IMG/VR virus record: IMGVR_UViG_3300019828_000298
Location: 1-49,905 of that record
DNA from: a virus
Length of the DNA stretch: 49,905 nucleotides
Direction: 5' to 3' (one strand)
Part shown: one piece after another, positions 8,871-28,330 of the stretch
How positions within the stretch are numbered: position 1 is the stretch's first letter
Layout: every line of letters begins with the position of its first letter
Translations under genes and position numbers: made by a program
Notes under the pieces: model-generated
Seen by the model: only the letters and a program-made list of their open reading frames with translations
What the model was told of the DNA's origin: nothing
Database searches by the model: none

Positions 8871-11336
8871 ATGGCACTAGTATCAGCAAATCAATTATCA
8901 CTAGAAAAAACTCTAGAAGAACTGATTAAAGAATTCAATGCTCTTAGGAGCGATGTTACATCTGTAACATTGGAATCTCTCGTCGCAGCTGCGTCTGCTC
9001 AAATTGTTTTTGAGGGTGCAACTGATGATGCAAATGAAACCACACTTACAGCTGTTGATCCTACTGCTGATAGAACAATCACACTCCCAGATGCAACGGG
9101 CACAGTTGTTACAACAGGTAATGCTGATGCTGGTGCAACCACAACAACATTTGCTGACCTAGACCATTTCCTAATCAATGACGGGGGCACTCTCAAGAAG
9201 ATGAGTATTGACACAGCGTTGTCGAGTCTCCCCGCACTGATCCCCTCTTCTGCTAACGCAAATGCGATTGGTTCTGCATCACTAGAATGGTCAGACCTTT
9301 TCCTTGGTGATGGTTCGGTAATAAACTTTGGTAATGACCAAGATACAACATTAACACACACAGACGGTGCAGGTCTGACACTTAACTCAACCAATAAACT
9401 TATGTTCAATGATGCATCACAATTCATTCAAGGAGCAAGTGCAACAATCCTTGACATTGCTGCCACAGATGAGATAGAACTTACTGCAACACTGATTGAT
9501 GTAGTGGGTAACTTTACTATTTCTGGTACAGTTGTTGGTGCGAGCACAATCCAAGGTACTACCATAACAGCAACAACTGCTTTTGTTCCAGACGCACAAG
9601 ATGGTGCTGCACTGGGTACAACCTCATTACAGTTTTCAGATTTGTTCTTGGCAGATAGTGCTGTAATTGGTTTTGGTGATGATAACGATACAACATTAAC
9701 ACACACAGACGGTGCAGGTCTTACGTTAAACAGTACCAATAAACTCATGTTCAATGATGCATCACAATTCATTCAAGGAGCAAGTTCTACCGTTCTGGAT
9801 ATTGCCGCAACAGATGAGATTGAACTTACTGCAACATTGATTGATGTGGTTGGTAACCTTGATGTTTCCGGTACAGTTGTTGGTGCAAGCACAATCCAAG
9901 GTACTACCATAACAGCAACAACTGCTTTTGTTCCAGACGCACAAGATGGTGCTGCATTAGGAACAACCTCATTACAGTTTAGTGATTTGTTCTTGGCTGA
10001 CGGGGCTGTACTTGGTTTTGGTGATAACAATGAGGTTACCCTAACACACGTTCATGATACTGGTATCCTGTTGAATAGTACGATGGCAATCCAGTTCAAC
10101 GATGCAAGTCAGTTTATCAATGCACCCAGTAATGCTATTCTGGATATTAATGCTACCGATGAAATAGAACTGAATGCAACTCTGTTAGATGTTAATGCGA
10201 ACATAAACGCAAGTGGGACATACACTGGTGCTGGAACAATGACCACGGGTGGTAATATTGTTCTTCCTGATGCTGGTACAATTGGTTCAGCTACAGATGT
10301 AGATGCCATTGCTATTGGCTCTGATGGTGACATTACATTAACTCAAGACCTAGAACTTCAACATGACGGTGCGATACTTTCCTTTGGTGCCAACGATGAG
10401 GTAACACTGACTCATGTTCATGATACAGGTATCTTACTGAATAGTACAAACGTAATTCAATTCAATGATGCATCACAAAACATTGGCGCACCCAGTAATG
10501 CTATTCTGGATATTAATGCGACAGACGAAATAGAACTCAACGCAACATTAGTTGATATAAATGCGAATGTTGAAATCAGTGGCAACCTAACAGTAAGTGG
10601 TACAACTATACAGGTTGATACTATTACAATGAATGCTACAAACGCCATTGTCTTTGAGGGTGCAACTGCTGACGATTCCGAAACTACACTGACAATTACA
10701 GACCCAACTGCTGACCGGACTATCACGTTGCCGGATGAAACGGGGACAGTTCATACTTCTGGTGGTAGCATCGTTATTCCAAATGCAGCAAACATTGGTT
10801 CTGCTGGCGATGCAGATGCAATTGCAATTGCTGCTAATGGTGTTGTAACCTTTAGTCAGATACCAGTTATGCCAGCAAACTCCATAGACAGTGATCAATA
10901 TATAGACGGTAGTATTGATACAGCACATTATGCTGCGGGTTCTGTTGATGCTGCTGCTTTAGGTGCTGACTCTGTTACCGCTGCAAAGATTGGTGATAAT
11001 GTAATTAACTCTGAACATTATGCTGCTGGTAGTATTGATGCAGAACATATGTCTGCAAACTCCATTGATAGTGACTCTTATGTGGATGGTTCTATCGATA
11101 GAGCGCATCTTGCTGGTGGTATTATTGATGGCACCAAACTTGCTGACAACGCCGTGGATAGTGAACACTATACCGATGGAAGTATTGATACAGAACATTA
11201 TGCAGACGATTCAATAACAGAAGCAAAAATAGCAAATGATGCGATTGGCGCAGCAGAACTGAAATCAGTTTCCACCCTATTGATTAAAAATGCCGCCGGG
11301 GGCACCTTGAAAACATTGTATGGTGCTGGTGCATAA
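8871..11336 (+). CDS. repeat-built tail fibre protein
   Basis: An 821-residue protein. The N-terminus is helical (SANQLSLEKTLEELIKEFNAL). The phrases TTLTAVDPTADRTITLPDATGT and later TTLTITDPTADRTITLPDETGT are typical of marine phage fibres. The centre holds two near-identical 115-residue units and two diverged ones (LTHTDGAGLTLNSTNKLMFNDASQFI, TDEIELTATLIDVVGN). The C-terminal third is a ladder of short SID-x-x-HY-x-x-GSID repeats. It ends IKNAAGGTLKTLYGAGA, probably the host-contact or trimer tip. Low complexity, lack of Cys and position after baseplate genes all fit a fibrous adhesin. The receptor cannot be read from the sequence. Confidence 0.8.
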   Translation: MALVSANQLSLEKTLEELIKEFNALRSDVTSVTLESLVAAASAQIVFEGATDDANETTLTAVDPTADRTITLPDATGTVVTTGNADAGATTTTFADLDHFLINDGGTLKKMSIDTALSSLPALIPSSANANAIGSASLEWSDLFLGDGSVINFGNDQDTTLTHTDGAGLTLNSTNKLMFNDASQFIQGASATILDIAATDEIELTATLIDVVGNFTISGTVVGASTIQGTTITATTAFVPDAQDGAALGTTSLQFSDLFLADSAVIGFGDDNDTTLTHTDGAGLTLNSTNKLMFNDASQFIQGASSTVLDIAATDEIELTATLIDVVGNLDVSGTVVGASTIQGTTITATTAFVPDAQDGAALGTTSLQFSDLFLADGAVLGFGDNNEVTLTHVHDTGILLNSTMAIQFNDASQFINAPSNAILDINATDEIELNATLLDVNANINASGTYTGAGTMTTGGNIVLPDAGTIGSATDVDAIAIGSDGDITLTQDLELQHDGAILSFGANDEVTLTHVHDTGILLNSTNVIQFNDASQNIGAPSNAILDINATDEIELNATLVDINANVEISGNLTVSGTTIQVDTITMNATNAIVFEGATADDSETTLTITDPTADRTITLPDETGTVHTSGGSIVIPNAANIGSAGDADAIAIAANGVVTFSQIPVMPANSIDSDQYIDGSIDTAHYAAGSVDAAALGADSVTAAKIGDNVINSEHYAAGSIDAEHMSANSIDSDSYVDGSIDRAHLAGGIIDGTKLADNAVDSEHYTDGSIDTEHYADDSITEAKIANDAIGAAELKSVSTLLIKNAAGGTLKTLYGAGA
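9342..10031 (+). repeat. 345-bp tandem repeat in the fibre gene (two near-identical units)
   Basis: GATACAACATTAACACACAC begins at 9342 and again at 9687, exactly 345 bp apart. The blocks starting TTCAATGATGCATCACAATT (9404 and 9749) and ACTACCATAACAGCAACAAC recur at the same spacing. Two more diverged units continue to about 10570. The period is 115 codons, so gain or loss of a unit keeps the frame. Confidence 0.85.
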
Positions 11337-11339: not shown

Positions 11340-11358
11340 TTGTTATGGGAGTAATTAA

Positions 11359-12321
11359 ATGACTGTTCGTGTTCCCGTAAAATATGATGGTAGTGATATT
11401 GTAGAGATGTCAGCCGGTGATATGACTGAATACTATACCTACATTGCATATCTGTATGCCCAAGCACCAACTGTAACTCTTACTGTTGTGTCTGCTAGTG
11501 GTACATTGACTCCCGGTTTGACTGATACAAGATTGCAGGCTGGTGCTGTAAGTAACTCTGCAACTGCTTTTGTTGCTGAAGGTTCAACAGCAGAACCCAC
11601 AACAGTCACAGGAACCACATACGATAAAATTACAGGACCAACTTATAATACAGATGGTTCTGCTGCTGGTGATCTGGGCGCTATTGGTTACCCACTATAT
11701 ATTAATGTCGATAATGATTTACAAGTCATGACGCAAGCAGACTATGTTGATACCTTTATCTATGCAACGCTGGACGCAATGATTACTGCATCAGAGGATG
11801 CTACGACTAACGGAACATATACCATTACAACTGCCGCAACTGTTGCGAACTATACAGAGGTTTCTGGTGCAAACACCCCAGTATTCGTAGATACCCGTGC
11901 AAATACGGCATTATATTCTGCTGCCGGTATTCCAGAGACACTTGATCAACCAACAACTATTACAAGTTATTATCTACAGAGGCGTAATGAAGCAAGGGCA
12001 TTCCCAAGCAATGCCCTCCTATTTGCAGAAAGTGATGGAAATATTATACAGGGTCCGCTGGCAGCAGATGATTCCACATTCCACGCTGTACTTGCAGTCG
12101 ATATTAAGTTTCGTGCAGCAGAGGATGATGCTGGACATAAACTAAGTTATAACATTAATGGCTCTGGTAATACTAGAGGAACTGCGATTGTTGATACAAG
12201 ACTTAATGGTGCTGGTAACTACCAAACTCTACAGGTTGGTGATGACTATCGTTCACAGGAATTTCCAAATGGATCATCTGTAGTAATTGGCACAAACACA
12301 CTTAACATAGTACATGTCTAA
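11359..12321 (+). CDS. phage structural protein, fibre-associated (320 aa)
   Basis: The protein begins MTVRVPVKYDGSDIVEMSAGDM and is rich in Thr, Ala, Gly and Asn with a beta-type pattern. It contains YYLQRRNEARAFPSNALLFAES in the middle and ends in a Gly/Asn-rich stretch (NINGSGNTRGTAIVDTRLNG). There are no cysteines and no transmembrane segment. It directly follows the repeat-built fibre gene and is followed by an exact late promoter. I associate such proteins with virion structural genes of marine T4-like phages, possibly a fibre or neck-appendage subunit. The exact role is not known. Confidence 0.55.
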   Translation: MTVRVPVKYDGSDIVEMSAGDMTEYYTYIAYLYAQAPTVTLTVVSASGTLTPGLTDTRLQAGAVSNSATAFVAEGSTAEPTTVTGTTYDKITGPTYNTDGSAAGDLGAIGYPLYINVDNDLQVMTQADYVDTFIYATLDAMITASEDATTNGTYTITTAATVANYTEVSGANTPVFVDTRANTALYSAAGIPETLDQPTTITSYYLQRRNEARAFPSNALLFAESDGNIIQGPLAADDSTFHAVLAVDIKFRAAEDDAGHKLSYNINGSGNTRGTAIVDTRLNGAGNYQTLQVGDDYRSQEFPNGSSVVIGTNTLNIVHV

Positions 12322-12324
12322 TCG

Positions 12325-12332
12325 TATAAATA
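12325..12332 (+). promoter_or_regulatory. T4-type late promoter word TATAAATA
   Basis: Exact TATAAATA four bases after the preceding stop. It is followed by the ribosome site CACAGGAGAAATTAA and the ATG at 12353. This is the only exact late-promoter word I found before the 12928-18848 accessory operon. Confidence 0.75.
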
Positions 12333-12352: not shown

Positions 12353-12925
12353 ATGTCATATTTATGGACAGATAAAATTACAGATTACTATTACAGCAAT
12401 CCAGAGTTGGATACTGTTGCAGTTATGTGGACAGACCCAGAAGATAAACTTACACGGGAACACTACATTAAGGTAGATGAATCTGATGAACAATGGAGAG
12501 ATTTTGTTGCAGAAGTTTCTTATGAAAAAATCGACGAACGCACTGTGGTTCGACACGAACAGTTTCGTGAACAGTTTCGTGATGCATTTCGTGAGTGGGC
12601 TGGAAGAAATGAAGATGACATACAAAATAGAACTCAGTCAAATAAGTTTGAAGATGTAATTATTAATTTTTTCTCAGAATTTGATAATACAGATGCTGAT
12701 CAAAAAGAACAGTTGTTTAAACTCAAACTCAAAATATTTGAACAAGAATGTGTTAAAAATTCAAAGTCAGCTGACAAGTTTAAAAATGCAAAAACTTTCA
12801 TTCGTAAAGCAGAAAGTCCTATGGATGTTTTGTTGGGGTATATGGTATTTGCAAATGGTGCTGAACTCAAGATGGCCGATAAAGAAAAGTTTCAAGTGGA
12901 GGGGGTATACGTCCCAATAAAATAA
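12353..12925 (+). CDS. hypothetical acidic protein (190 aa)
   Basis: A 190-residue hydrophilic protein beginning MSYLWTDKITDYYYSNPELD, with many Asp, Glu, Lys and aromatic residues and a predicted helical second half (ADQKEQLFKLKLKIFEQECVK). It has a good ribosome site and follows an exact late promoter. It lies two bases before the first glycosyltransferase-like gene, so it may be cotranscribed with the accessory operon. I see no catalytic motif. It could equally be a small tail assembly protein. Confidence 0.6.
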   Translation: MSYLWTDKITDYYYSNPELDTVAVMWTDPEDKLTREHYIKVDESDEQWRDFVAEVSYEKIDERTVVRHEQFREQFRDAFREWAGRNEDDIQNRTQSNKFEDVIINFFSEFDNTDADQKEQLFKLKLKIFEQECVKNSKSADKFKNAKTFIRKAESPMDVLLGYMVFANGAELKMADKEKFQVEGVYVPIK

Positions 12926-12927
12926 TT

Positions 12928-13668
12928 ATGAATAATATATTATGTATGAAGTGGGGAGATAAGTATGATGACTCCTATGTTGAGAAGTTGAAAGAACAGT
13001 GTGAGGCAAACTGCACTGTTCCTTTTAAATTTTGGTGTTTTACCGACAAGCCAGAAAAAGACTGGCACATTCCAATTCCAACTACACTAGATAAGTTCTA
13101 TAATGAGGAACGTGGTTTCTTCTGGGCATATCGTAAGTGTTATATGTTTAGACCTGATCTTATTAGTGGTGATGGGAAAATCTTTCCAGATAATTCTAAA
13201 TTTATGTTCCTTGATCTTGATGTTATCATTCATCAAGATTTAAAGTATTTCTTTGAATTGCCTAACGATAAGCCATGGATTGTTCGTGGGTGGTGGAATG
13301 ATATTAGTATGGTTAAACAAAATTATGCAAAGCATAAATCAACACCCCTCAACTCATCAGTTATTGTATGGAAGAAAGGTCAGCTGATGCCAGTGTGGAA
13401 CCACGTTGTGGATAATGCAGAAGTTGTTTTCTTTACATCACCAAGTCTAGATAACTACTTTGCTCACCACTGGTATGATCCTTGGAAAGAAGATGACGGA
13501 TTTCTACGAGGATTTCCACAAGGAGATATCTATTCATGGTATAAGGGGAATGTTTTTCCTGATGATATGGAGAAAAAGAAAATAAGAGAAGACCACAAAA
13601 TTTGTTTATTTAACAATAGCACACAGACTGAGGGTGTTAATACTGATGAGATAAAAGAATTATGGTAG
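12928..13668 (+). CDS. glycosyltransferase-like protein (GT-A type)
   Basis: 246 residues starting MNNILCMKWGDKYDDSYVEKL. Residues 92-98 read KFMFLDLD, a D-x-D motif (D96, D98) after a hydrophobic strand, as in GT-A glycosyltransferases that bind a nucleotide sugar through a metal ion. Later it has WIVRGWWND and LNSSVIVWKKG. It is clearly related to the protein encoded at 17397: both have an N-terminal xxGDKY, the D-x-D strand and a GWW motif. It is the first gene of an overlapping operon (the next gene overlaps by 7 nt). The acceptor is unknown: a virion protein, host surface glycan or small molecule are all possible. Confidence 0.65.
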   Translation: MNNILCMKWGDKYDDSYVEKLKEQCEANCTVPFKFWCFTDKPEKDWHIPIPTTLDKFYNEERGFFWAYRKCYMFRPDLISGDGKIFPDNSKFMFLDLDVIIHQDLKYFFELPNDKPWIVRGWWNDISMVKQNYAKHKSTPLNSSVIVWKKGQLMPVWNHVVDNAEVVFFTSPSLDNYFAHHWYDPWKEDDGFLRGFPQGDIYSWYKGNVFPDDMEKKKIREDHKICLFNNSTQTEGVNTDEIKELW

Positions 13669-14309
13669 ATCATATAAAATTTACAACTGAAATTGCTGAA
13701 GATTGGAAGTCTGTTCTTTCTCTAGTACATCACGATGAATATAATCACTGTATCAAAAGAATTCGAGATGCATCAACAGCGTCCCAGTTGCAAAGTAAGT
13801 TATGGTTAGTTTCAGAAATCGTAAATCTTGGTATCAGGGCTGAGAGGGTAGCTCTTCTTGCTGGTTGGTATGCAAACTTCATCACACCACTTTTGATTGA
13901 TGAACTTGGAGTAAAATATATACTTAACCTAGAAATTGATCCTGATGTTAAAACTCTTACCTATAAATTTAATAAGAGATATAAAGATCAAGACTCTGAG
14001 ACAAAAGCATTATACAAGTGTTATTTGCATGACGTTATGTTTGAACCTCTAAAATATGGTCATTTTGATTTAGTTATTAACGCATCATGCGAACATATGT
14101 TCCCCATGTCAAGGTTTCGTAAACTAAACAAGTCTAATAATCATATATATGTGTTACAGTCAACCGATGATGAACAATGGGATGATCATATAAATTGTGT
14201 TAGTGGCCCAGAGGAATTAGCGGATCAGGCAGAGATTGTTGATATTATGTATTCTGGCACACTAAAATTGGACAATGGTATGAACAGGTTTATGGTGATA
14301 GGACGATGA
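13662..14309 (+). CDS. Rossmann-fold, methyltransferase-like protein
   Basis: 215 residues. Residues 62-75 (VALLAGWYANFITP) followed by YILNLEIDPDV look like motifs I and II of a class I SAM-binding fold, with an acidic residue after the second strand. FDLVINASCEHM resembles the motif IV strand. The substrate is unknown. It overlaps the previous gene by 7 nt and shares ATGA with the next, so the three are translationally coupled. A non-methylating Rossmann protein cannot be excluded, because the glycine-rich loop is short. Confidence 0.5.
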   Translation: MVDHIKFTTEIAEDWKSVLSLVHHDEYNHCIKRIRDASTASQLQSKLWLVSEIVNLGIRAERVALLAGWYANFITPLLIDELGVKYILNLEIDPDVKTLTYKFNKRYKDQDSETKALYKCYLHDVMFEPLKYGHFDLVINASCEHMFPMSRFRKLNKSNNHIYVLQSTDDEQWDDHINCVSGPEELADQAEIVDIMYSGTLKLDNGMNRFMVIGR

Positions 14310-15004
14310 ACATCGTAGAGTGGTGCCGGGATCATGATGTCTGGTATTTAAAGATTGATATAGAGATTCCAGAAGTTTGCATGAAGGAAGCACAGGCAGT
14401 ATATGACGAAGGTTTCTTTGTTGATCACAGATATGGTGACGGCGACGGTTGGAGGTCAGCATCTATTCACAGTTTTGTGGAGAAAGGTTCTGACCCATCA
14501 TTAGGATGGTTTCATACAAAAAATCCAAGCGGGCATGGTCTGTCTGAGGATAATGTTGATTGGGGGTGGACAGAGATTGCAGAAGTTGCCCCAGAGACTA
14601 AGAGGTGGTTAGAGGATTTCCCCCACAAGTCCTATAGACGTTTGCGGTTTATGTTATTGGAACCGGGCGGCGCTATTGTAGATCATAATGACTCCAATGA
14701 AAAAAGAGACAGAGAAGGTAGAACAAGAAACATTTCTGGTGCAATCAATCTTGCGTTCTATCAACCTGAAAATTGTTATCTGAGACGAACAGACACAAAG
14801 GAAGAGTTGCCTTTTGAGAACTGCACGGGTTTCTGGTTTGATAATGGTGTGCAGCACGAAGCATTAAACAGCTCAAATGAGAATAGGTTTCACTTTATTA
14901 TGCATGGGGGTTTCAATAAGGAACGTGAAGAACTTATGAAGAGGTCGTTGGTCAAACAATTTGGTAAAGATGTGTTGCGAGAGATTGATGACCAAAAAAC
15001 TTGA
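14306..15004 (+). CDS. aspartyl/asparaginyl beta-hydroxylase-like 2OG-Fe(II) oxygenase
   Basis: 232 residues. FMLLEPGGAIVDHNDSNEKR (residues 115-134) supplies the H-x-D of the iron site (H127, D129). GVQHEALNSSNENRFHFIMHG (181-201) supplies the distal His (H184) and the Arg (R194) that binds 2-oxoglutarate. This layout and the surrounding residues fit the aspartyl/asparaginyl beta-hydroxylase family, which hydroxylates side chains of peptides or free amino acids. It is coupled by an ATGA overlap to the preceding gene and overlaps the radical SAM gene. The substrate cannot be read. Confidence 0.7.
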   Translation: MNIVEWCRDHDVWYLKIDIEIPEVCMKEAQAVYDEGFFVDHRYGDGDGWRSASIHSFVEKGSDPSLGWFHTKNPSGHGLSEDNVDWGWTEIAEVAPETKRWLEDFPHKSYRRLRFMLLEPGGAIVDHNDSNEKRDREGRTRNISGAINLAFYQPENCYLRRTDTKEELPFENCTGFWFDNGVQHEALNSSNENRFHFIMHGGFNKEREELMKRSLVKQFGKDVLREIDDQKT

Positions 15005-16127
15005 AGATTATAAATGGTTTTGTCCAGAACCCTTTACAAATACTATGAACTCTATAACTGGTTCAGGTGAAATGAATATACCTTGTTGTCACATTAACAG
15101 CAATAAATGGAATAGGAAAGTTGAAGGTCAAGATATAAAATCCTTTCGAAAAGAATTTATAAATGGTGGTGGACCTTTAATTGATAATGTTTGCACTAGG
15201 TGTATTAAACAAGAGGAATCTGGAAACAAAAGTTTTAGACAAAATCACTTAGATAATTTCAATGGTAAGTTTGCACATAAGAAAAAAGAACTAGAAGAGA
15301 ATTTAGACAACCCGCCATTACTTACTATGGAATTTAGAGCGCAAGATAATTTTTGCAATTTGAGATGTAACATGTGTAAATCGATACTGTCTTCTGGACT
15401 TGCCAAAGAAAACTTGGCATTGGGAAAACCCATTCATCATAGATTGAATAATAATCCTCGTTTTAAAAAAGAATCTAATATTCCTAACTTAGAAAACTTA
15501 CTAGAGCTGAAACTTGTTGGTGGAGAGACATTAGCAATTGATGATAACTATAAGGTCATGGAAAAATGTCCAGCTGATGTGGTAGTCCATATCACAACCA
15601 ATGCAACTGTAACTCCTAAATTTAACGATAAGGATATATTTGACTATATTTCAAAATTTAAAGAGATACATATGAATGTGTCTATAGAATTTTGGGGAGA
15701 TAAAAATAACTATCTACGTTTTCCATCAAAGTGGGATCGTATTATGGACAATGTTAAAAAGTTTAAATCTTTTGATAATTGTATAGTAAATTATCACGCT
15801 ACAATAAATGCTTTAAACGTAGGTTATATGTTAGAAATAATTGATAATGCTGATTGTCCAATTGCAATAGACAATTTAGTATATGGTGAGAATGAAATTT
15901 ATTCAATCGTTTCGGTTCCTCCAGAGATAAGAGAACAATACTTAGAGAAGTATTATCGTGATTATAGGAAAGAAACAGATACTATAATCACATACCTTGA
16001 AAATATTGAATATGATAAATCTCAAATGATTCGTATGTTACAAGACATAAAGGATAGAGATAAATATCGTGGAACGTGTTTAACTGATTTGTTTCCAGAA
16101 TGGAGAAACTATTATGAAAAGCTTTGA
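14988..16127 (+). CDS. radical SAM protein with extra N-terminal cysteines (twitch-type)
   Basis: The chosen start ATG at 14988 (MTKKLEDYKWFCPEPF) overlaps the previous gene by 17 nt; an in-frame ATG at 14961 is possible but lies deeper in that gene. Residues 123-130 read CNLRCNMC, the C-x3-C-x2-C radical SAM cluster motif (C123, C127, C130). Before it are C12, the pair C33-C34, and C69-x2-C72, a pattern of auxiliary iron-sulfur ligands like that of twitch/SPASM enzymes. KLVGGETL resembles the SAM-binding GGE motif. Such enzymes often modify peptides or small molecules. The substrate here is unknown. Confidence 0.75.
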   Translation: MTKKLEDYKWFCPEPFTNTMNSITGSGEMNIPCCHINSNKWNRKVEGQDIKSFRKEFINGGGPLIDNVCTRCIKQEESGNKSFRQNHLDNFNGKFAHKKKELEENLDNPPLLTMEFRAQDNFCNLRCNMCKSILSSGLAKENLALGKPIHHRLNNNPRFKKESNIPNLENLLELKLVGGETLAIDDNYKVMEKCPADVVVHITTNATVTPKFNDKDIFDYISKFKEIHMNVSIEFWGDKNNYLRFPSKWDRIMDNVKKFKSFDNCIVNYHATINALNVGYMLEIIDNADCPIAIDNLVYGENEIYSIVSVPPEIREQYLEKYYRDYRKETDTIITYLENIEYDKSQMIRMLQDIKDRDKYRGTCLTDLFPEWRNYYEKL

Positions 16128-17409
16128 TGAATTTGTTGCATTGTGGGAGAAGGAAACAGATAAGGTAAAAATTAAAAAAGAATTTAAACATATGTTGTTT
16201 CTGGTGGTTTATCCTGACAAACTAAAATGGGATTTTGGAATAGAGAAACAAACTCAAACTACAACATTTATGGTTACAGGGGGTGCTACTGGAGCATCAA
16301 CAGGCCACGATGTTCGTTTTTGTTATAGGAGCGAAGTTCACGATCTTCTTTTAAAGTGTGATCATACCCATGCTATGATTGTATCAGTTGGTATGGTATT
16401 CGATATGGTGTCCGGTGGGCCTGAAAAACGAGTTACACCAATAACGGACTTCTATGATTTTGTAGAGAGCGATCAGTTTTGCAAAGCTCATATTATGGCA
16501 AGGCCAAAACATAAAGCATATTTTCACCATCAACATATCAATTTAAATCTTACGGTATGGAAGGATATCGGTTCTCCTGATATGTCTAAGAGATATGCTG
16601 TTGTTAAACGATCCCCCGATAATTACCATGATGACTATACCCCGCCATGGATAGAACTAGAGGGGATGCCTACTGTCACAAATTTTACGAATGCTGAAAG
16701 ATCGAGAAAATCCTTTTCATATTATAGAGATGATCAAACTGCATTTTGGAAAGACCTTGACAATGTAGATATGAACGATTATTATTTTAGTAGATTTATG
16801 ACGAGAATACGAAAACAATTTTATATAGAGAATACAGAAAGAGTTGGAGAACTACCTACAGAAAAATTTGATATTATATTTTCAACTACAGCTGGTTATC
16901 GTGCTGCACTACTTGCAGACCAATTAGAGTTTGACGGTGAAGTTGTGTTGTTTGATTACTGTCAAGAAAATTTAGATATAAAACAAATGATAATAGAAAT
17001 GAATATGTCTTTGCCAGAAATTAACTCTTATGGTAAAATGATCGACCATGATATGGTACTTCCTGATTCTATCGCAAAACAATCTGTAAAAAGTATGGGT
17101 TCTTTTGAAAATTTAAGGCAATTAGAAGAAAAAATGGAAAGGGACTATGACATTGAGTATTGGTTGATGGATTTAATATCACCAAACTATGATAGAATTT
17201 TGGAAAAAATTCAAGGTAAGACAGTATTTTTCGACGCAACTAATATCTTTTGTTATCACATGTCACACGCATATTATACTCTAGATGAATTGGTCAATTC
17301 GTATAAAAAATTACGAGATGTTTTGACATCATCTAATGGAACCTTTTATAGAGGCACTTCACCAACCAAACAAAAAATAGATGCATGGGTATCCAAATGG
17401 ATATCGTAG
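16114..17409 (+). CDS. unknown protein of the accessory operon (431 aa)
   Basis: Starts MKSFDEFVALWEKETDKVK, overlapping the radical SAM gene by 14 nt. The N-terminal half includes VTGGATGASTGHDVRFCYRSEVH and a His-rich stretch (AYFHHQHINLNLTVW). The C-terminal half has alternating strand-helix segments (EKFDIIFSTTAGYRAALLADQLEFDGEVVLFDY and KTVFFDATNIFCYH) that resemble a Rossmann-type fold with an acidic residue ending the second strand. I do not recognise the family. By context it should act with the flanking radical SAM, glycosyltransferase and oxygenase genes. Confidence 0.6.
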   Translation: MKSFDEFVALWEKETDKVKIKKEFKHMLFLVVYPDKLKWDFGIEKQTQTTTFMVTGGATGASTGHDVRFCYRSEVHDLLLKCDHTHAMIVSVGMVFDMVSGGPEKRVTPITDFYDFVESDQFCKAHIMARPKHKAYFHHQHINLNLTVWKDIGSPDMSKRYAVVKRSPDNYHDDYTPPWIELEGMPTVTNFTNAERSRKSFSYYRDDQTAFWKDLDNVDMNDYYFSRFMTRIRKQFYIENTERVGELPTEKFDIIFSTTAGYRAALLADQLEFDGEVVLFDYCQENLDIKQMIIEMNMSLPEINSYGKMIDHDMVLPDSIAKQSVKSMGSFENLRQLEEKMERDYDIEYWLMDLISPNYDRILEKIQGKTVFFDATNIFCYHMSHAYYTLDELVNSYKKLRDVLTSSNGTFYRGTSPTKQKIDAWVSKWIS

Positions 17410-18101
17410 CAGTTCGTATTGGTGATAAGTATGGTCCAGAGTATGAGACATACTTAGAGAACAAGTTACCAGAACACAACTTTATCTGGGTTCATGAACC
17501 ATATCATCCATCTGTCACTTTGCAATGGAACAAGATGTGGGGTATGCAGATGGACACCGATGAACCTATCTGTGTGATGGACATTGACATTTTGCTTATG
17601 GGTGATTATAAGAAGGTTTTTGACTATCCAATAAAGCCGGGACAGTTTCTTGCAATGCCGGGATGGTGGAGAAATGATTCCGACACTTATGAGATTAATG
17701 GTGGGTTCTTTAAATACTACCCAAAGGAATGCAAATATATCTATGACAAGTTCATGAAGGATATTCATCATTGGCAACAGTTTTATATTAAGAATGGCCA
17801 AACCACTGGGCCTGTTAATGGTGAACAATATTTTGTAGAGGATAGTGTGAATGAAAGATTAGAACTTATCACACTTCCTAACGAGTGGTTTACCAGATGG
17901 GTTGCTGATGATAAGGTTATTGATTTTAAAAACAACAAAACTTGGCAGTACAGGATGACTGAGCGATATGAGAAGGCAACTGGTAACGATTGGATATATA
18001 TGGGGGGAGAGTTTCATCCCGATATAAAAATTGTGCATTTTACAAACCATAGAAACAAACCTCATGAATGGAGAGACTATGAAAATTTTTGCAGCAACTA
18101 G
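17397..18101 (+). CDS. second glycosyltransferase-like protein
   Basis: The ATG at 17397 gives MDIVAVRIGDKYGPEYETYL, the same N-terminal pattern as the protein at 12928; an ATG four codons upstream is also possible. CVMDIDILLMGD (residues 59-70) contains the D-x-D motif (D62, D64), followed by AMPGWWRND, again like its paralogue. This fits a GT-A fold nucleotide-sugar transferase. It overlaps the previous gene by 13 nt and the next by 23 nt. Two related transferases in one operon suggest either two successive sugar additions or two acceptors. Confidence 0.6.
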   Translation: MDIVAVRIGDKYGPEYETYLENKLPEHNFIWVHEPYHPSVTLQWNKMWGMQMDTDEPICVMDIDILLMGDYKKVFDYPIKPGQFLAMPGWWRNDSDTYEINGGFFKYYPKECKYIYDKFMKDIHHWQQFYIKNGQTTGPVNGEQYFVEDSVNERLELITLPNEWFTRWVADDKVIDFKNNKTWQYRMTERYEKATGNDWIYMGGEFHPDIKIVHFTNHRNKPHEWRDYENFCSN

Positions 18102-18684
18102 TTCTTCTTCAGATAGTACATATCTGTTATATAAACTCCTTACTGAAACTACAGATGATATTATATCAAGGATACTTCGTCTAGATGCATCTGATCAAGA
18201 CGTAACACAGTATCCTATTGTGTGTAATTGGTTGAAAGAAAATGTTCGTGATTTTGATTTTGATTTTTCAGAGTTTGAAGATCGTGCTAGTGATACCATG
18301 TTAGAAACTATAAGATCAAAATGGTATACTGTTGCATTGTTATCAGAAATGCACGATGTAAACTTAATATGTATAGGTTATAATACATATAATTGGAGTC
18401 CTTCTAATTGGTATTTTAAAAGTTCAGAGTCAACTGAAAATTTTTATAGAAGAGGAAATTTATATTCTAGAGTAGATCATTCCATTCTTAGAGATTACAC
18501 AGATATTCCCATTGAATGGCCGTTAATGAATCGCAAAGATGAACCTATGGGAAGATGGGAAACGTGGGAGTTAATACCGAAAGAGCTTCAAAAGTTAGTT
18601 TCTCACTGTTCATGTGAAAAGTGTGCTAAATGTAAATGTCGGGAATGGTATAATAAAAAGAAAAAGAAGGATTTAGTGCTGTAG
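18079..18684 (+). CDS. PP-loop ATPase-like protein, zero-frame part
   Basis: The start is the ATG at 18079 with GGAGAG just upstream; an earlier in-frame ATG lies deep in the previous gene. The product begins MKIFAATSSSSDSTYLLYKLL, which aligns with the PP-loop protein at 23356 (MKILIPFSGGINSTYSLYRWL). The two glycines of the usual SGGxDS nucleotide-binding loop are serines here (S8-T14). GRWETWELIPKEL near residue 168 also matches the paralogue (GRFEQYEFLPKEL). A Cys cluster (CSCEKCAKCKC) follows. The frame then ends in a Lys run, 201 aa, shorter than the 266-aa paralogue, while the likely rest of the protein lies in the -1 frame. Confidence 0.6.
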   Translation: MKIFAATSSSSDSTYLLYKLLTETTDDIISRILRLDASDQDVTQYPIVCNWLKENVRDFDFDFSEFEDRASDTMLETIRSKWYTVALLSEMHDVNLICIGYNTYNWSPSNWYFKSSESTENFYRRGNLYSRVDHSILRDYTDIPIEWPLMNRKDEPMGRWETWELIPKELQKLVSHCSCEKCAKCKCREWYNKKKKKDLVL

Positions 18685-18848
18685 AACTTGATGATATTAT
18701 TATGAAGGAGGGAAAATATGGGAAATATTATACAAAAGAAAGTATTCCAGACACTAGGCATGATGCTTATGCAGACCAGAAATTTCCAGTATGGAAACCG
18801 AAGTTGTCCAGTTATCAAGCATTACCAACAAAACCTCACAATAGATGA
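18657..18848 (+). pseudogene. -1 frame continuation of the PP-loop gene
   Basis: The frame one base back from the PP-loop gene is open from 18657, just after a TAA at 18654-18656, to a TGA at 18846-18848. After the Lys-coding run it reads GFSAVELDDIIMKEGKYGKY and then YTKESIPDTRHDAYAD. This is protein-like and would bring the gene to about 260 aa, close to its paralogue. The switch must occur in the A-rich run 18655-18670 (AAAAAGAAAAAGAAGG). It may be programmed -1 slippage, an inactivating indel or a sequence error. An independent small gene from the ATG at 18702 is the alternative. Confidence 0.5.
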
Positions 18849-18869: not shown

Positions 18870-18877
18870 TATAAATA
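18870..18877 (+). promoter_or_regulatory. T4-type late promoter word TATAAATA before gp13
   Basis: Exact TATAAATA 19 nt before the gp13 start, in the short gap after the accessory operon. The purine-rich GGAAAAAGGAT follows as a ribosome site. Confidence 0.75.
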
Positions 18878-19771: not shown

Positions 19772-20413
19772 ATGGAAAAATATGGTTTTGTTTATATTTG
19801 GAGAGATCGAAAGCATAATAAATATTATATAGGATGTCATTGGGGAACTGAAGATGATGGTTATATTTCATCATGTAAATGGATGAATAGAGCTTATAAA
19901 AGAAGACCGGAAGATTTCAAAAGAAGAATATTGAAAAAAATATATACTTCTAGGGAAGATTTATTAAACGAAGAATATTATTGGTTGCGGTTTATAGATG
20001 ATGGTGAACTTAAAGTAAAATATTATAACACTATAAATAAAAAATTTAATCATTGGTCTGTTTCTGAAAGAGACAGTGTTCGAAAGACTATTAGTGAAAA
20101 AACTAAAGAAGCAATGTGGAGAGATGATGTAAGAACTAACTATATCAAAGGTATGAAAACCAGAGATAATAAAAGCGCAGACCCAGAAGTTAGAAGGAAA
20201 AGGTCTATATCTATGATGGGTAAGAATGTGGGCAAGAAACGCACAGAAGAATCCAAGAGAAAGATGAGTAAAGCAAAGATGGGCACGAAACACACAGAAG
20301 AACACATAAGGAAAAAAATGGTAGGTATTAGCAAACTCTATGGGTGCCCTAGTTGTGATAAAAAAATGAATGTTGGGAACCTCACAAAACATATTAAGAT
20401 TTGCAGAGGATAA
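19772..20413 (+). CDS. GIY-YIG homing endonuclease (Seg-like)
   Basis: 213 residues. The N-terminus GFVYIWRDRKHNKYYIGCHWG carries the G-(I/V)-Y and Y-I-G elements of the GIY-YIG nuclease, with a downstream Arg/Glu-rich helix. The middle holds repeated K-R-T-E-E-S-K-R-K-M-S-K-A-K-M-G units (NUMOD3-like DNA-binding motifs, about residues 130-180). The C-terminus has C-P-x-C-D and H-x-x-x-C (CPSCDKK, HIKICRG), a small zinc-binding module. It is free-standing between gp13 and gp14, with its own late promoter. Such genes spread by cutting related phages that lack them. Confidence 0.85.
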   Translation: MEKYGFVYIWRDRKHNKYYIGCHWGTEDDGYISSCKWMNRAYKRRPEDFKRRILKKIYTSREDLLNEEYYWLRFIDDGELKVKYYNTINKKFNHWSVSERDSVRKTISEKTKEAMWRDDVRTNYIKGMKTRDNKSADPEVRRKRSISMMGKNVGKKRTEESKRKMSKAKMGTKHTEEHIRKKMVGISKLYGCPSCDKKMNVGNLTKHIKICRG

Positions 20414-21730: not shown

Positions 21731-22537
21731 ATGTTGGGAACCCAGTTCTACCACGAAACAGTACGCAACGTAGTTGTGGGTTTCGGAACAATTTTTAATA
21801 ATATTCAATTAGTTCGTAAGGACAATGCTGGAAAGGTTCAACAGACTATGAAGGTTCCCTTGGCATATGGTCCAAGGCAGAAGTTTCTTGTTCGTCTTGC
21901 TGATGATGCAGACCTTAGTAAAGCTGCTGCGGTTACTTTACCTCGTATTGGTTTTGAAATCACAGGTCTTACCTACGATCCCGGTAGGAAACTAAACCGT
22001 GTTCAGAAGTTCAAAAAGGTTAAGGGTGACACAACCAAAACACAACAGTTGGACACGCAATATATGCCTGTTCCCTATAATGTTAATTTTCAACTTTATA
22101 TTCTTGCAAAACAGTCAGATGATGCTCTACAAATTGTTGAACAGATTCTACCATACTTTCAACCAGACTACACAATCACGATGAATGATAACGCTGATAT
22201 GGGTGTTAAAAAAGATATCCCTGTTATTCTAAACAGTATTTCTTATGAGGATGATTATCAGGGAGACTTCACTACAAGACGAGCAATCATCTATACTATG
22301 GATTTCACTTGTAAATTTTATCTATATGGCCCGGTTACTTCTAGTAAGGTTATCAAGACGGTACAGGTTGATGCATATACTGATCTGCCCGACAAATCAC
22401 CCACACGACAGCAGAGACTTACAGTTACACCAAACCCAACCAGTGCTGATGCTGATGATGATTTTGGTTTCAATGAGGTGACATCATTCTTTGAAGATGC
22501 AAAAAATTATAACGCAGTGACGGGTGAAGATGAGTGA
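21731..22537 (+). CDS. 15: tail completion/sheath stabiliser gp15-like
   Basis: 268 residues starting MLGTQFYHETVRNVVVGFGT, with FNNIQLVRKD, KVPLAYGPRQKFLVRL and LPRIGFEITGLTYDPGRKLN, the typical gp15 pattern. In T4, gp15 caps the end of the sheath and tube and binds gp13/gp14 at the neck. It ends in an acidic tail (VTGEDE). It has the ribosome site AAGGAGACGG and lies directly before a 2OG-oxygenase-like gene that overlaps its last codons. Confidence 0.85.
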   Translation: MLGTQFYHETVRNVVVGFGTIFNNIQLVRKDNAGKVQQTMKVPLAYGPRQKFLVRLADDADLSKAAAVTLPRIGFEITGLTYDPGRKLNRVQKFKKVKGDTTKTQQLDTQYMPVPYNVNFQLYILAKQSDDALQIVEQILPYFQPDYTITMNDNADMGVKKDIPVILNSISYEDDYQGDFTTRRAIIYTMDFTCKFYLYGPVTSSKVIKTVQVDAYTDLPDKSPTRQQRLTVTPNPTSADADDDFGFNEVTSFFEDAKNYNAVTGEDE

Positions 22538-23354
22538 TAACATGTTTCATTATGCAGATGTTCCTTTATCAGTAATTGATAATCTAATAAATTTAGAAGA
22601 AGAACTACAAGTTTTAGAACGAGCTCGAAAATTTAGACTAGAAATCGATCCAAATTATTTGGGATATAGAAAAATATCTGATAGTGGGTTGCCAATAGAT
22701 GAGATGAGTGATTCTCTACAGGGTCACACTAATTTAGAAATTTTCACTGAAGATGAAAAGGCTAATTCGGTCAAACTTTTTAATGAAATTCTAAAACCAA
22801 TTGTTGGGTATGAACCAAATACTCAAGGTAGGTATGGATATTACAAAGAAGCAATTCATATACATAATGATGGTGAAAATTATTTAGGTGATGATTGGAA
22901 ATCGCACAACAGAACAGGACAAAAACCTCGGCCTGCAAACACAACAGTATTCTTTCCACTAAGATGTTACAAAGAAGATGGGAGTGTGGGAACAACTGAG
23001 ACTGTATACTTTGACCAAAAAACTCCTTGGTCTGCAAAATCTGGAATTGATATTGAGAGTGACGATCAAAAGTTCTATAGAGATCATGGTCCAAAGGGAT
23101 GGCAATTGGATCATGATTATAGTGATTTAGTAGGATACACTAACAAACCCTTTGATTCAGATGTTTGGGTAGAACACCTGCAACAGCACCCAATTGAGAT
23201 GTTACATGGATTTAGTTTTGCAGCATCCATTCCTTGGAATATTGGTCAAGTTGTTATGTTTGAGACTTCAAGAATTCATTGTAGTTCTTATATGGAAGAT
23301 TGTTTTGGTAAAGACTGTTTTCTTGTAAAGGTCAACACAAATTTATGGGATTAG
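22524..23354 (+). CDS. 2OG-Fe(II) oxygenase-like protein
   Basis: The start is the GTG at 22524, or the ATG two codons later; both overlap the end of gp15. In the 276-aa product, HIHNDGEN (near residue 113) offers an H-x-D pair, and VVMFETSRIHCSSY (near 250) offers the distal His, the arrangement of cupin-fold 2-oxoglutarate/iron oxygenases. A clear 2OG-binding Arg was not fixed, so the family call is moderate. It heads the second accessory set, inserted between gp15 and gp16, and is followed two bases later by a PP-loop gene. Confidence 0.5.
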   Translation: MKMSDNMFHYADVPLSVIDNLINLEEELQVLERARKFRLEIDPNYLGYRKISDSGLPIDEMSDSLQGHTNLEIFTEDEKANSVKLFNEILKPIVGYEPNTQGRYGYYKEAIHIHNDGENYLGDDWKSHNRTGQKPRPANTTVFFPLRCYKEDGSVGTTETVYFDQKTPWSAKSGIDIESDDQKFYRDHGPKGWQLDHDYSDLVGYTNKPFDSDVWVEHLQQHPIEMLHGFSFAASIPWNIGQVVMFETSRIHCSSYMEDCFGKDCFLVKVNTNLWD

Positions 23355-23355
23355 T

Positions 23356-24156
23356 GTGAAAATACTTATACCATTCTCTGGCGGTATAAATTCAACATAT
23401 TCACTTTATCGTTGGTTGACTGAGACTAATGCTGATATTTTTGTTCGATATGGATTTGATCATTTTGAAAATGATGACTACCGTTCAGAAGAACTTGAAA
23501 GAGTTCAAAATTTATCACACTTCCTTAAAAAAGAATATCGTGATTTTGATTTAGAACTGGGTGAGTTTCCTAAACAATATGTAAAGGAACAGATTCCGAT
23601 CTGGCCGGGATTTAAAAAAGGAAAATATGATATCGGTGCTCTTAGACCACGTTATGCTGGATATATCAATTGGTGTTTTGAAACAGGAGCAGATGGAATA
23701 TCCATAGGAATATGTTTAGAAAATACAGCAACTCAGGGTTATGAAGTAAGTCGCCGTGAATCTGGTATTGAAAATATTGGTGTTGATATATATTTGGGTG
23801 GTGTGAGAGAGTTGGTTCCAGTGGCCACTGGAGATGATTTTAACTATAATGAGGTCGCAAAACATATGATGGGTAGGTTTGAACAGTATGAGTTCTTACC
23901 AAAAGAGTTGCGAGATTTGTGTATTAGATATAATTCAGAGAGTCGTAATGGACGTGAAGTTGCATACTGGCGAACATATCAAAAATTTATCAGTGAGGGT
24001 AAAACAGGAAGAGACTTTGATTTGTATTGTGCTAAACACGGTAGTTATGGTCCTTGGAGACATGAAGCTGACCCAGAAACGTACATGTATAGGGGTCGAA
24101 ATGAGGATGGAAAATTGCCTTACTTAATTTATATGGGAGATAATTATGGTAGATGA
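23356..24156 (+). CDS. PP-loop ATPase-like protein
   Basis: A GTG start directly follows the previous stop. The product begins MKILIPFSGGINSTYSLYRWL. SGGINST (residues 8-14) is the pyrophosphatase loop of N-type ATPases such as QueC, asparagine synthase and tRNA thiolases, with Asn in place of the usual Asp. TGADGISIGICLENTA follows as a second nucleotide-contact region. These enzymes adenylate a carbonyl or carboxyl group and then add a nucleophile. It is the paralogue of the gene at 18079 but lacks that protein's Cys cluster. The substrate is unknown. Confidence 0.65.
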   Translation: MKILIPFSGGINSTYSLYRWLTETNADIFVRYGFDHFENDDYRSEELERVQNLSHFLKKEYRDFDLELGEFPKQYVKEQIPIWPGFKKGKYDIGALRPRYAGYINWCFETGADGISIGICLENTATQGYEVSRRESGIENIGVDIYLGGVRELVPVATGDDFNYNEVAKHMMGRFEQYEFLPKELRDLCIRYNSESRNGREVAYWRTYQKFISEGKTGRDFDLYCAKHGSYGPWRHEADPETYMYRGRNEDGKLPYLIYMGDNYGR

Positions 24157-24577
24157 AATTGACAAAGCGCTTGGAGTGGTTGGGGATATTATTCCTCCAG
24201 AAGCATCTTTGAACCCAAACGCCAAAATGTCTGATGTTTCTCGTTATCCAACAGAGATAGAGGGTGGCGAAGATATTGATGAGGACTATAAGTATCAAAG
24301 GGAGAACTTCTATCGCTTGGTTGAACAAGGTTCAGCTGCAATTGAGGGCATCCTTGAACTTGCGAAAGAGGGTGAGCATCCAAGGGCATATGAGGTTGCT
24401 GGTCAATTAATCAAGAATGTCGCAGAGGTAACTGAGAAACTAGGTGACCTGCAAGAGAAAATGAAAAAACTCAAAGAGGTTCCCAATAACGCACCGAAGA
24501 GTGTTACGAATGCATTGTTCGTCGGTAGTACTGCTGAGTTACAAAAAATGTTGAAAGGTAAAAGTGAAAATGAATGA
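24146..24577 (+). CDS. 16: small terminase subunit gp16-like
   Basis: 143 residues, overlapping the previous gene by 11 nt. After an acidic N-terminus come NFYRLVEQGSAAIEGILELAKEGEHPRAYEV and GQLIKNVAEVTEKLGDLQEKMKKLKE, a long helical hairpin, then NAPKSVTNALFVGSTAELQKML. This is the gp16 pattern of T4-like phages. gp16 forms a ring that regulates the gp17 packaging motor. In T4 the gp17 gene follows directly; here two accessory genes and an HNH gene intervene. Its last codons are copied at the end of the following ligase gene. Confidence 0.85.
   Translation: MVDEIDKALGVVGDIIPPEASLNPNAKMSDVSRYPTEIEGGEDIDEDYKYQRENFYRLVEQGSAAIEGILELAKEGEHPRAYEVAGQLIKNVAEVTEKLGDLQEKMKKLKEVPNNAPKSVTNALFVGSTAELQKMLKGKSENE
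24541..24567 (+). repeat. 27-bp direct repeat, copy 1 (3' end of gp16)
   Basis: ATGTTGAAAGGTAAAAGTGA (24548-24567) recurs exactly at 25818-25837. The seven bases before it match at six positions. The repeat encodes MLKGKSE in the same frame in both genes and contains an AAAGG ribosome site followed by a GTG start for the next gene. Confidence 0.9.
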
Positions 24578-25841
24578 TGTTTCATCAATACAGAATGCTT
24601 TAAAAAATGTTGTTAAAAATAATCCAAATCATATTGCAGTAAAAGAACTAAACACAGGAAGAGAAATCACATATCTTTCTCTGTATGAAAAGTCGGAGAT
24701 GAGGTCTGAGAACATTGATGATACACCATATGGTATAATATGTTTACCTGATGGTATTGATTGTGCTATTGAATTTTTAGCTCACGCCTTTATTAAAAAA
24801 CCTTTTCTAGCTCGCCATCCTTCCGCATCAAAATATGAATCATCGTTACAAGATAAATTTTTAAAAGAAAATTTCCATCCCATTCCTGATGGTTTTCAAA
24901 TAAAAGTAAGTAGTGGAACAACGAATAAAGCTAAGTTCTTTTTTGTCAAACAATCTCATAGAGTTTTCTATGCACGTCAACTTGCTGAGCGTCTTAAAAT
25001 AATTCCAAATGATACTGTTTTTTGTCCAGTGCATACGACATATGCCATTGGTGACATAACCATGATAATGACACTTATCTCTGGTGCTACTTTTTATTGT
25101 AACAATGATTTGCAACGGGTGAACAAAAAAATAGAGGAATATATTTTAGACATCAGTCAATACCAACCAAGTGTTGTTGTATCTTCACCCCTTACAATAT
25201 CTGAGATAGCTAAAGTTAATAATATAAAACTGAGTCCTAGAGTATGGAGTACTGCTGGAGCACCACTAAATTACGAAGATGCCTTAAAAATAGAGAATCA
25301 AATATCTGGTGTGGTATTGAACAGGTATGGAATAGCTGAGGGATTTATGGCTCATATGTGTAGTATTGATGATACGCAAGACAAAAGATTTTTAACTATT
25401 GGTAAAATAGAAACGGATAAGATAAGGCTTGGTGAAAATGGAGAGGTATTGATATCCAGAGATTTTTTGCACGATTTCATGCCAACTAAATTTAATGGTG
25501 ATTGGTATAATATAGGTGACTTTGGTAGAATCGATGAAGACGGGTATTTAGTTTTAACAGGCAGAAAAAAACTTCTTATATCTCTTGGTGGTCGAGATAT
25601 AAATCCTTTAGAAGTTGAGTCTCTTTGTTCTGGCAAATCATGTCTTATAGGAATTGATGGGGTTCTATATTTATGTGTTGAGGATGATATCGATCCCAGA
25701 AATTATATAGAGGAAACTTTGAAGATACGCATAAACCATTTATGGCAAGGAAAAATACCAGAGATGTCATTGGGTAAGATTGATAGAATTAAGATGACAG
25801 AAATAATAAAACAAGAAATGTTGAAAGGTAAAAGTGAGTAA
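24564..25841 (+). CDS. ANL-superfamily adenylating ligase (acyl-CoA/amino-acid ligase-like)
   Basis: A GTG start at 24564 lies inside the repeat, in an AAAGG context. In the 425-aa product, SSGTTNKAK (116-124) is the ATP-binding P-loop. YGIAEG (255-260) is the A5 motif. WYNIGDFGRIDEDGYLVLTGR (314-334) is the A7-A8 core. GKIDR (404-408) carries the catalytic Lys (K405). All motifs needed to make an acyl- or aminoacyl-adenylate are present, although the protein is shorter than the usual ~500-550 aa. No carrier-protein domain is fused. It sits between gp16 and an asparagine-synthase-like gene. The acid it activates is unknown. Confidence 0.8.
   Translation: MKMNDVSSIQNALKNVVKNNPNHIAVKELNTGREITYLSLYEKSEMRSENIDDTPYGIICLPDGIDCAIEFLAHAFIKKPFLARHPSASKYESSLQDKFLKENFHPIPDGFQIKVSSGTTNKAKFFFVKQSHRVFYARQLAERLKIIPNDTVFCPVHTTYAIGDITMIMTLISGATFYCNNDLQRVNKKIEEYILDISQYQPSVVVSSPLTISEIAKVNNIKLSPRVWSTAGAPLNYEDALKIENQISGVVLNRYGIAEGFMAHMCSIDDTQDKRFLTIGKIETDKIRLGENGEVLISRDFLHDFMPTKFNGDWYNIGDFGRIDEDGYLVLTGRKKLLISLGGRDINPLEVESLCSGKSCLIGIDGVLYLCVEDDIDPRNYIEETLKIRINHLWQGKIPEMSLGKIDRIKMTEIIKQEMLKGKSE
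25811..25837 (+). repeat. 27-bp direct repeat, copy 2 (3' end of the ligase gene)
   Basis: This copy differs from 24541-24567 at one position and lies 1270 bp downstream. It forms the last codons of the ligase gene and the start region (GTG at 25834) of the next gene, so the ligase gene is bracketed by the two copies. Confidence 0.9.
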
Positions 25842-26826
25842 GGTTCTTTATTATCATCTCAATTCCTTTCCAGAAATAAGTGCAAGAGATGAGTATAAAT
25901 TAGCAACTAGTTTTGGATTACACTCTCCTCGTTTTAGATTTGGTTTTGACAACCAGTTTGATTTGATAGAGAACCCCCTTACAAATTTTCCTACAAATTT
26001 TACATCAACATTCGAAGAGTTAACTAATCGTAGGGCTGTAGAGTTATGGGATATTGGCAAACCAATAAGATTGTGGTGGTCAGGTGGTATAGACAGCACA
26101 TGTGCATTGGTAAGTCTGCTGAAAACTAAAAGGTTGGATACAAGTCTTACTGTGTATCTATCAAAAGCTAGTGTACAAGAAAATCCACGTTTCTATGATT
26201 TATTAGTCAATAAGAAAGTTAATTTGCAGTGGCATTCTCACGAAGACTATATCTATGATAATGATCAGTTGTGGAATGACCAAACAATTAATGTGAATGG
26301 TGGCGGGGGAGATGAATTATTTCTCGCAATATCATCATATACATCTATAGAGGAATTTTTCAAAATTAAAGACCACGATTGGATTAATGTTATGAAAGAT
26401 TCTGATATGTTAAACACTACTGAGAAATATATTGATATGTCTCCATACAAACCAAAAACATGTTGGGAGTTACTTTGGTGGTTTGCTAGGAGTATAGATG
26501 ATTTGTTATCAAGATACCTCTCACCAAGATTTCTCAAAGACCCATCTGTGTATCATCTAGAATATCCATTTTTCTATACAGATTATTTTGAGAAGTGGGC
26601 TTTGTCTAATCCATATGCTGGACATAATGGTGACTATGGAACATACAAATGGCCAATGAAAAAATACATATATGATTATGATAAAAATGAAGATTACTTA
26701 TATACAAAACAAAAAGAAAGTTCATTTCGTTCAGTAAATAAACAACCACGATATGAAGGTGTATCTTCTAATCATTATGTTCTTAATAAGATTGTGTATG
26801 AAGATGGTACATACGTTAGATACTAA
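25834..26826 (+). CDS. asparagine-synthase-like PP-loop protein without glutaminase domain
   Basis: 330 residues from a GTG start. RLWWSGGIDSTCALVSLL holds the PP-loop SGGIDST (83-89), and NGGGGDELF (155-163) corresponds to the GEGxDELF motif of the AsnB synthetase domain. The N-terminal ~75 residues lack the Cys2 glutamine-amidotransferase domain, so an amine other than glutamine-derived ammonia, or free ammonia, would be used. Asparagine-synthase-like enzymes of this kind form amides or lactams. It overlaps the ligase gene by 8 nt. Joint action with the ligase in making an amide bond is inferred. Confidence 0.7.
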   Translation: MSKVLYYHLNSFPEISARDEYKLATSFGLHSPRFRFGFDNQFDLIENPLTNFPTNFTSTFEELTNRRAVELWDIGKPIRLWWSGGIDSTCALVSLLKTKRLDTSLTVYLSKASVQENPRFYDLLVNKKVNLQWHSHEDYIYDNDQLWNDQTINVNGGGGDELFLAISSYTSIEEFFKIKDHDWINVMKDSDMLNTTEKYIDMSPYKPKTCWELLWWFARSIDDLLSRYLSPRFLKDPSVYHLEYPFFYTDYFEKWALSNPYAGHNGDYGTYKWPMKKYIYDYDKNEDYLYTKQKESSFRSVNKQPRYEGVSSNHYVLNKIVYEDGTYVRY

Positions 26827-28325: not shown

Positions 28326-28330
28326 GGTGT

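Follow-up and report, generated by a model that had tools for sequence, protein, structure and literature searches.

A fixed-order gene core beside the fibre genes of uncultured T4-like phages, a candidate pathway for fibre decoration

We analysed the whole IMG/VR virus record IMGVR_UViG_3300019828_000298 (49.9 kb, called the window below), in which a cassette of seven overlapping genes (12928-18684) lies within the late structural region of a T4-like phage. Five of the seven, GT1, MT, AspH, U431 and GT2, form a core that is kept in one order in related marine phages, shows low substitution ratios, sits in a late-promoter layout together with fibre genes, and exchanges alleles between close relatives. 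The encoded enzymes probably let the virus build and vary a sugar coat, either on its own fibres or on the surface it meets. We give a chance of about one in two that the cassette is a late, fibre-linked pathway that hydroxylates and glycosylates the fibre and so gives it a variable decoration.

The cassette site is bounded by fibre genes and the neck gene gp13. The seven open reading frames (ORFs), all on the + strand, run end to end, with neighbours overlapping by 4-25 nucleotides (nt), and this bears out the initial annotation, which had listed seven overlapping modification-type genes in the late structural region. The last gene ends at 18684 in this contig and at the position equal to 18848 in relatives. 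The features of the segment are as follows (aa, amino acids; SAM, S-adenosylmethionine).

8871..11336, + strand: fibre-like protein, 821 aa, PHROG tail fibre and baseplate-wedge matches
11359..12321, + strand: fib11359, fibre-associated protein, 320 aa, relative in Pelagibacter phage Mosig (43%)
12325..12332, + strand: T4-type late promoter motif TATAAATA, just upstream of g12353
12353..12925, + strand: g12353, putative fibre-module protein, 190 aa, first gene of the operon segment
12928-13668, + strand: GT1, GT8-like (GT-A type) glycosyltransferase, 246 aa, from PF01501 matches in relatives and homology to GT2
13662-14309, + strand: MT, class I methyltransferase-like protein, 215 aa, weak family matches
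14306-15004, + strand: AspH, Asp/Asn beta-hydroxylase-type Fe(II)/2-oxoglutarate oxygenase, 232 aa, PF05118
14988-16127, + strand: twitch-domain radical SAM enzyme, 379 aa from ATG, NF033640, with an in-frame TTG at 14961
16114-17409, + strand: U431, predicted two-domain protein, 431 aa, from AlphaFold and Foldseek
17385-18101, + strand: GT2, second glycosyltransferase-like protein, 238 aa, from homology to GT1; the conserved ATG of relatives would place its start at 17397
18079-18684, + strand: PP1, QueC-like PP-loop protein, 201 aa from ATG, a truncated copy
18870..18877, + strand: late promoter motif ahead of gp13, belonging to the next unit

Relatives were gathered with three baits: U431 (29 loci), AspH (78 loci) and fib11359 (405 relatives, 80 kept). 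Four or more core genes were present in 58 distinct loci, all of them from uncultured phages; 57 of these keep the order GT1-MT-AspH-U431-GT2, and the remaining one is rearranged. The ratio of nonsynonymous to synonymous substitution rates (dN/dS) of the core genes was 0.03-0.28 in six pairs with unsaturated synonymous sites, indicating that these genes are under purifying selection. The same gene order together with the low dN/dS means that the cassette is more than a product of chance. The initial annotation had held that the genes belong together and that a random combination in relatives would speak against it; when the same set was searched for in relatives, five of the seven proved to be a core and random combination was not what we found for them. 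A tblastn search of a collection of 50,697 records found relatives of AspH, U431, GT2 and PP1 in no isolate phage (0).

The protein most tightly tied to the cassette is fib11359. Among 73 distinct loci collected with it as bait, 40 carry at least four of the five core genes downstream on the same strand, six have a glycosyltransferase/methyltransferase cluster on the opposite strand, three have a closed site without core and seven have another fibre layout; the other 17 were too short, and six of these still show at least three core genes. Most relatives long enough to show it also have the 821-aa fibre-like gene upstream of their cassette. The gene g12353 follows fib11359 here and in the cassette-free phages L119, L123, L126 and L128 (L numbers denote our relatives).

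The window contains 14 copies of the late motif TATAAATA, where 4.6 would be expected, and 13 of the 14 are on the + strand; in relatives the motif was counted 344 times on the coding strand and 39 times on the other. It lies about 27 nt upstream of 51 of the 53 gp13 genes in relatives and about 26 nt upstream of g12353 in 23 of 63, while none was detected upstream of GT1, MT, AspH or U431 in relatives (60-63 loci each). Scans for sigma-70 promoters and terminators gave matches at chance level. With motifs at 12325 and 18870 and none before core genes, the cassette would fall into the late fibre unit, as the initial annotation had expected in proposing late expression with the fibre genes. The simplest reading of the motif positions is a late unit that opens in the fibre module and has the cassette as its downstream part.

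Exchange of alleles was surveyed in 17 close pairs with a median identity of at least 0.85 over eight genes; these pairs share phages and are not independent events. The genes that were low outliers in such pairs were MT (6), GT1 (3), U431 (3), fib11359 (2) and g12353 (1), and AspH, GT2 and gp13 were a low outlier in none of the 17, which makes MT the core gene most frequently exchanged for a diverged allele. In L082 and L091, U431 is 52% identical and the remaining genes are about 98-100% identical; the DNA flanks are 98.9-99.5% identical, the alleles differ over a sharply bounded stretch that opens 150 nt into U431 and closes where GT2 starts, and the two phages also carry a different partner oxygenase. 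Likewise, L088 compared with L081, L084 and L100 showed 69% identity in GT1, 51% in MT and 91-98% in the rest, and against L084 and L100 the difference is limited to the GT1-MT stretch, with sharp break points inside GT1 and MT. The exchange of GT1 plus MT or of U431 resembles the serotype exchange at polysaccharide loci.

AspH matched PF05118 with an E-value of 5e-8 and 33.4 bits (curated cut-off 22.6), and the iron ligands of the HxD...H type (H127, D129, H184) and the 2-oxoglutarate-binding R194 are invariant in 15 diverged members, so that the hydroxylase site is intact. Its predicted activity is hydroxylation of a protein, lipid or sugar.

The glycosyltransferase PF01501 (GT8) was weakly matched by seven of 23 GT1 relatives (best 3e-4), and the window copy gave no match. 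D96 and D98 of the DLD motif of GT1 are invariant, as are D66 and D68 of the DID motif of GT2. The two proteins are homologous (hhalign probability 97.9, E 6e-13); PF01501 was matched by none of 17 GT2 members, and the link of GT2 to GT8 goes through its homology to GT1 only. The GT2 profile found no match among Protein Data Bank (PDB) sequences. For MT, PF01564 (spermine synthase) was matched by three of 31 relatives (best 1e-4) and Methyltransf_11 by one (0.039). Relatives of GT2 in bacterial genomes were located on three contigs of metagenome-assembled genomes, L182, L183 and L184. Of these, L182 was rejected as a bacterial carrier and taken as a phage contig because it carries gp13-gp15, and L184 carries relatives of fib11359 and g12353.

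U431 showed no family match by sequence. Its AlphaFold model from a deep alignment reached a predicted local distance difference test (pLDDT) of 92.3 and a predicted template modelling (pTM) score of 0.90; the fold made from 19 close relatives only had a pLDDT of 47, and the deeper alignment was needed. In Foldseek searches against the PDB, the C-terminal half matched methyltransferases with a probability up to 1.00 and a template modelling (TM) score to the target of only 0.33-0.39, and the N-terminal half gave weak matches to GT-A glycosyltransferases; full-length uncharacterised phage proteins matched at a TM-score of about 0.7. By eye, the typical GxGxG loop was not seen in U431. Its sequence profile showed no link with GT2 and MT and no match to PDB sequences, and 41 pattern matches in bacterial genomes contained no true relative. 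The predicted model suggests that U431 may be a fusion of glycosyltransferase and methyltransferase, which we regard as a lead, not a result.

The two remaining genes of the cassette are optional cargo in relatives, and in this point the initial annotation, which had counted the radical SAM and PP-loop genes as members of the set, was too wide. The radical SAM enzyme matched NF033640 (3.5e-60, 204 bits, cut-off 170) and has its CX3CX2C motif at C123, C127 and C130; its gene is optional and its position shifts. PP1, also optional, has the loop SSSSDS, invariant in 13 members, and not the QueC-type SGGxDS. In this contig, an A-rich run of PP1 near 18561 is one A short, and because of this one-base deletion PP1 is truncated to 201 aa, compared with about 256 aa in three near-identical contigs; the deletion is either an assembly error or a microvariant. 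Other optional neighbours with clear Pfam matches are a NodU-type carbamoyltransferase, a GNAT acetyltransferase, a second PF05118 oxygenase, a radical SAM enzyme with SPASM domain, an APH-like kinase and asparagine-synthase-like proteins; GDSL-like and sulfotransferase-like proteins stay below the Pfam cut-off. The variable part of the cassette of L020 also contains, at 11244-12188, a gene for a DctP-type solute-binding protein of a TRAP transporter (PF03480, 3e-45).

A second cassette of optional tailoring genes, absent from the list of the initial annotation, was observed at 22524-26826 between gp15 and gp17, interleaved with gp16.

22524..23354, + strand: OG2, putative 2-oxoglutarate oxygenase, 276 aa, read by eye, no library match
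23356..24156, + strand: PP2, PP-loop protein (SGGxNS), PP1 homologue
24564..25841, + strand: AMP-binding adenylate-forming enzyme, PF00501 (3.8e-10)
25834..26826, + strand: asparagine-synthase-like protein (SGGIDST), motif reading, no Pfam match

A glutaminase domain was not seen in the last of these. PP2 is carried by seven of ten PP1-bearing loci and by none of 15 loci without PP1, and this co-occurrence may be explained by the shared ancestry of one subclade. In cyanophages, the region from gp15 to gp18 is known to be hyperplastic (PMC2984593).

We favour decoration of the fibre because of the predicted late co-expression, the contiguity with the fibre pair, the soluble enzymes, the mix of enzymes and the exchangeable alleles. 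None of the cassette proteins has a membrane segment (top 19-residue hydropathy 1.25), and therefore a cytoplasmic substrate, for example the unassembled fibre, fits. In such a pathway AspH would hydroxylate a freshly synthesised fibre-module protein on one of its side chains, or else a glycan. GT1, GT2 and the glycosyltransferase-like half of U431 would assemble a short glycan there from sugar nucleotides of the host, MT and the methyltransferase-like half of U431 would methylate it, and the optional enzymes (radical SAM, PP-loop, carbamoyl-, acetyl- and sulfotransferase-like proteins, extra oxygenases) would cap it. AspH and GT2 would stay constant, and GT1 plus MT, or U431, would be traded between lineages when the conserved genes on either side recombine, with the result that the exchanged alleles might give different decorations in close relatives. 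As a more tentative extension, which we hold somewhat less probable than fibre decoration itself, these lytic T4-like phages might switch serotype: with a fixed hydroxylation-glycosylation-methylation pathway, swaps of single alleles (GT1 plus MT, or U431 with its partner oxygenase) would alter the decoration of their own fibres and thereby host recognition or evasion.

Several points weigh against fibre decoration. The evidence for calling these proteins glycosyltransferases and methyltransferases consists of weak library matches and remote folds, and we infer all of the chemistry, as well as the fibre as its substrate. GT8 enzymes act on lipopolysaccharide too. The pair fib11359-g12353 with a closed, cassette-free site exists in L119, L126, L128 and relatives, which means that this fibre works without decoration. 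The mirror-distance test against fib11359 gave weak and unspecific correlations (Spearman 0.21 for MT and 0.28 for GT1), therefore there is no sign of matching to the fib11359 sequence. Genes for sugar supply were not found in the window.

The enzymes could instead alter the surface polysaccharide (O-chain) of the host, and thus block adsorption of other phages or keep the progeny off debris. The GT8 family assignment agrees with this, O-antigen loci typically swap alleles too, and PF05118 includes the lipid A hydroxylase LpxO. It is also the hypothesis published for this region, put forward for the GT8 genes of pelagimyophages (PMC7029224). But the cassette has no flippase, polymerase or membrane-anchored enzyme and no membrane segments, it is contiguous with fibre genes, and it appears to belong to a late-promoter fibre operon, a stage at which superinfection exclusion pays a lytic phage little; we consider this explanation possible but rather unlikely. 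It is less likely again that both cassettes make a small molecule or a modified peptide that serves some other purpose, such as acting against competitors or the host. The window does hold adenylate-forming, asparagine-synthase-like, PP-loop and radical SAM enzymes, relatives add a carbamoyltransferase, and the co-occurrence of PP1 and PP2 may link the two sites. Such enzymes are optional, however, in contrast to the constant glycosyltransferase core; the PP1-PP2 link perhaps concerns one subclade only, a carrier protein was not found, and a precursor peptide gene is lacking, for which there is no room because the core genes overlap. The pathway to a ribosomally synthesised and post-translationally modified peptide (RiPP), which the initial annotation had considered, was rejected for want of this precursor gene; a fibre protein might serve as the substrate.

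That unrelated auxiliary genes have piled up at an insertion hotspot, without a common product, seems improbable for the cassette as a whole. The region is a known hypervariable island in pelagimyophages (PMC7029224), as gp15-gp18 is in cyanophages (PMC2984593), and in Mosig the corresponding place before gp13 is taken by pigment-biosynthesis genes. The five-gene order, fixed in 57 of 58 loci, and the purifying selection argue against it; accumulation at a hotspot is largely refuted for the core and is likely for the optional genes.

The T4-like late region of the window contains gp8, a large gp7-like gene, the fibre genes, the seven overlapping genes and gp13-gp20. Further features are as follows.

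597-2102: gp8, PF09215
18897 and 20417: starts of gp13 and gp14

The product of 2104-6084 is related to the large protein of Melnitz that adjoins its gp8-like gene, and from its position it would be VrlC itself. The nearest portal relatives are those of Methylophilales phage Melnitz (65%) and Pelagibacter phage Mosig (61%). The psbA gene (Photo_RC) was not found in 12 relatives examined, several of them only fragments, and therefore a cyanobacterial host has no support. Two tandem gp14-like neck genes were seen in several relatives, including L010, L012, L013, L020 and L082. The large terminase gene gp17 (27411-30047) is divided between two ORFs; at the joint, their ends resemble the halves of an intein by eye (CVSGDTKV..., ...GLVSHNC), and a GIY-YIG endonuclease gene lies between the halves (28331-28903) in a 'fractured gene' layout. 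Free-standing homing endonuclease-like genes (GIY-YIG/NUMOD3, HNH) are placed at 19772-20413 between gp13 and gp14 and at 26900-27424 before gp17, and a late promoter motif of its own immediately precedes each of them.

Glycosyltransferases of marine T4-like phages have so far been assigned to modification of the host O-antigen by guesswork. A fixed core on one fibre pair with swappable alleles offers a testable alternative, that abundant marine phages add hydroxyl groups and sugars to their own fibres and vary these fibres, and near-identical phages that differ only in U431 or in GT1 plus MT are natural experiments leading from enzyme to product. Precedent for a viral protein that is hydroxylated and then glucosylated is L230 of mimivirus (PMC9614988). 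As in the pathway proposed here, a 2-oxoglutarate hydroxylase creates, on a viral protein, the site that a glycosyltransferase uses as acceptor; L230 differs in being a lysyl hydroxylase for a collagen-like protein, a single fused enzyme and from a eukaryotic virus, and we claim no membership in that system. Cyanophage P-SSM2 is similar as a T4-like marine phage with many sugar genes and two lipopolysaccharide gene clusters, and differs in having 24 genes in two clusters of one genome; the likeness is by description, as cited in PMC2984593.

Closer is the cluster of Mosig EXVC030M (MT647606, 60990-73446), which has a fib11359 relative (43%) and beside it a GT8-like gene and a carbamoyltransferase, with MT-like (67 bits) and GT2-like (49 bits) genes. 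It differs by lying on the opposite strand and having an extra DegT aminotransferase and epimerase, and relatives of AspH and U431 were not found at that site. Diverged opposite-strand glycosyltransferase/methyltransferase clusters beside fib11359-g12353, in a Mosig-like arrangement, were observed in L166, L171, L174, L175 and L177. For the host recognition cluster of pelagimyophages, GT8 and radical SAM genes were reported and modification of the host O-chain was proposed (PMC7029224, Zaragoza-Solas et al. 2020). That cluster, as described there, is like the cassette in its place, with the gp7-like VrlC gene on one side and the neck genes on the other, and in its tail fibres, GT8 and radical SAM genes and hypervariability; it was called nonsyntenic there, and by this description the fixed core, the late operon shared with one fibre pair and the allele swapping appear to set the cassette apart. 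The five-gene core was not found described in the literature searched, a search outside of which most subscription papers lay. The initial annotation's candidate for an undescribed phage system thus stands in part: the cassette lies at the place already published as the host recognition cluster, whose GT8 and radical SAM genes are known (PMC7029224), and Mosig has a related cluster, while the fixed core, its membership in the fibre operon and the exchange of its alleles appear undescribed.

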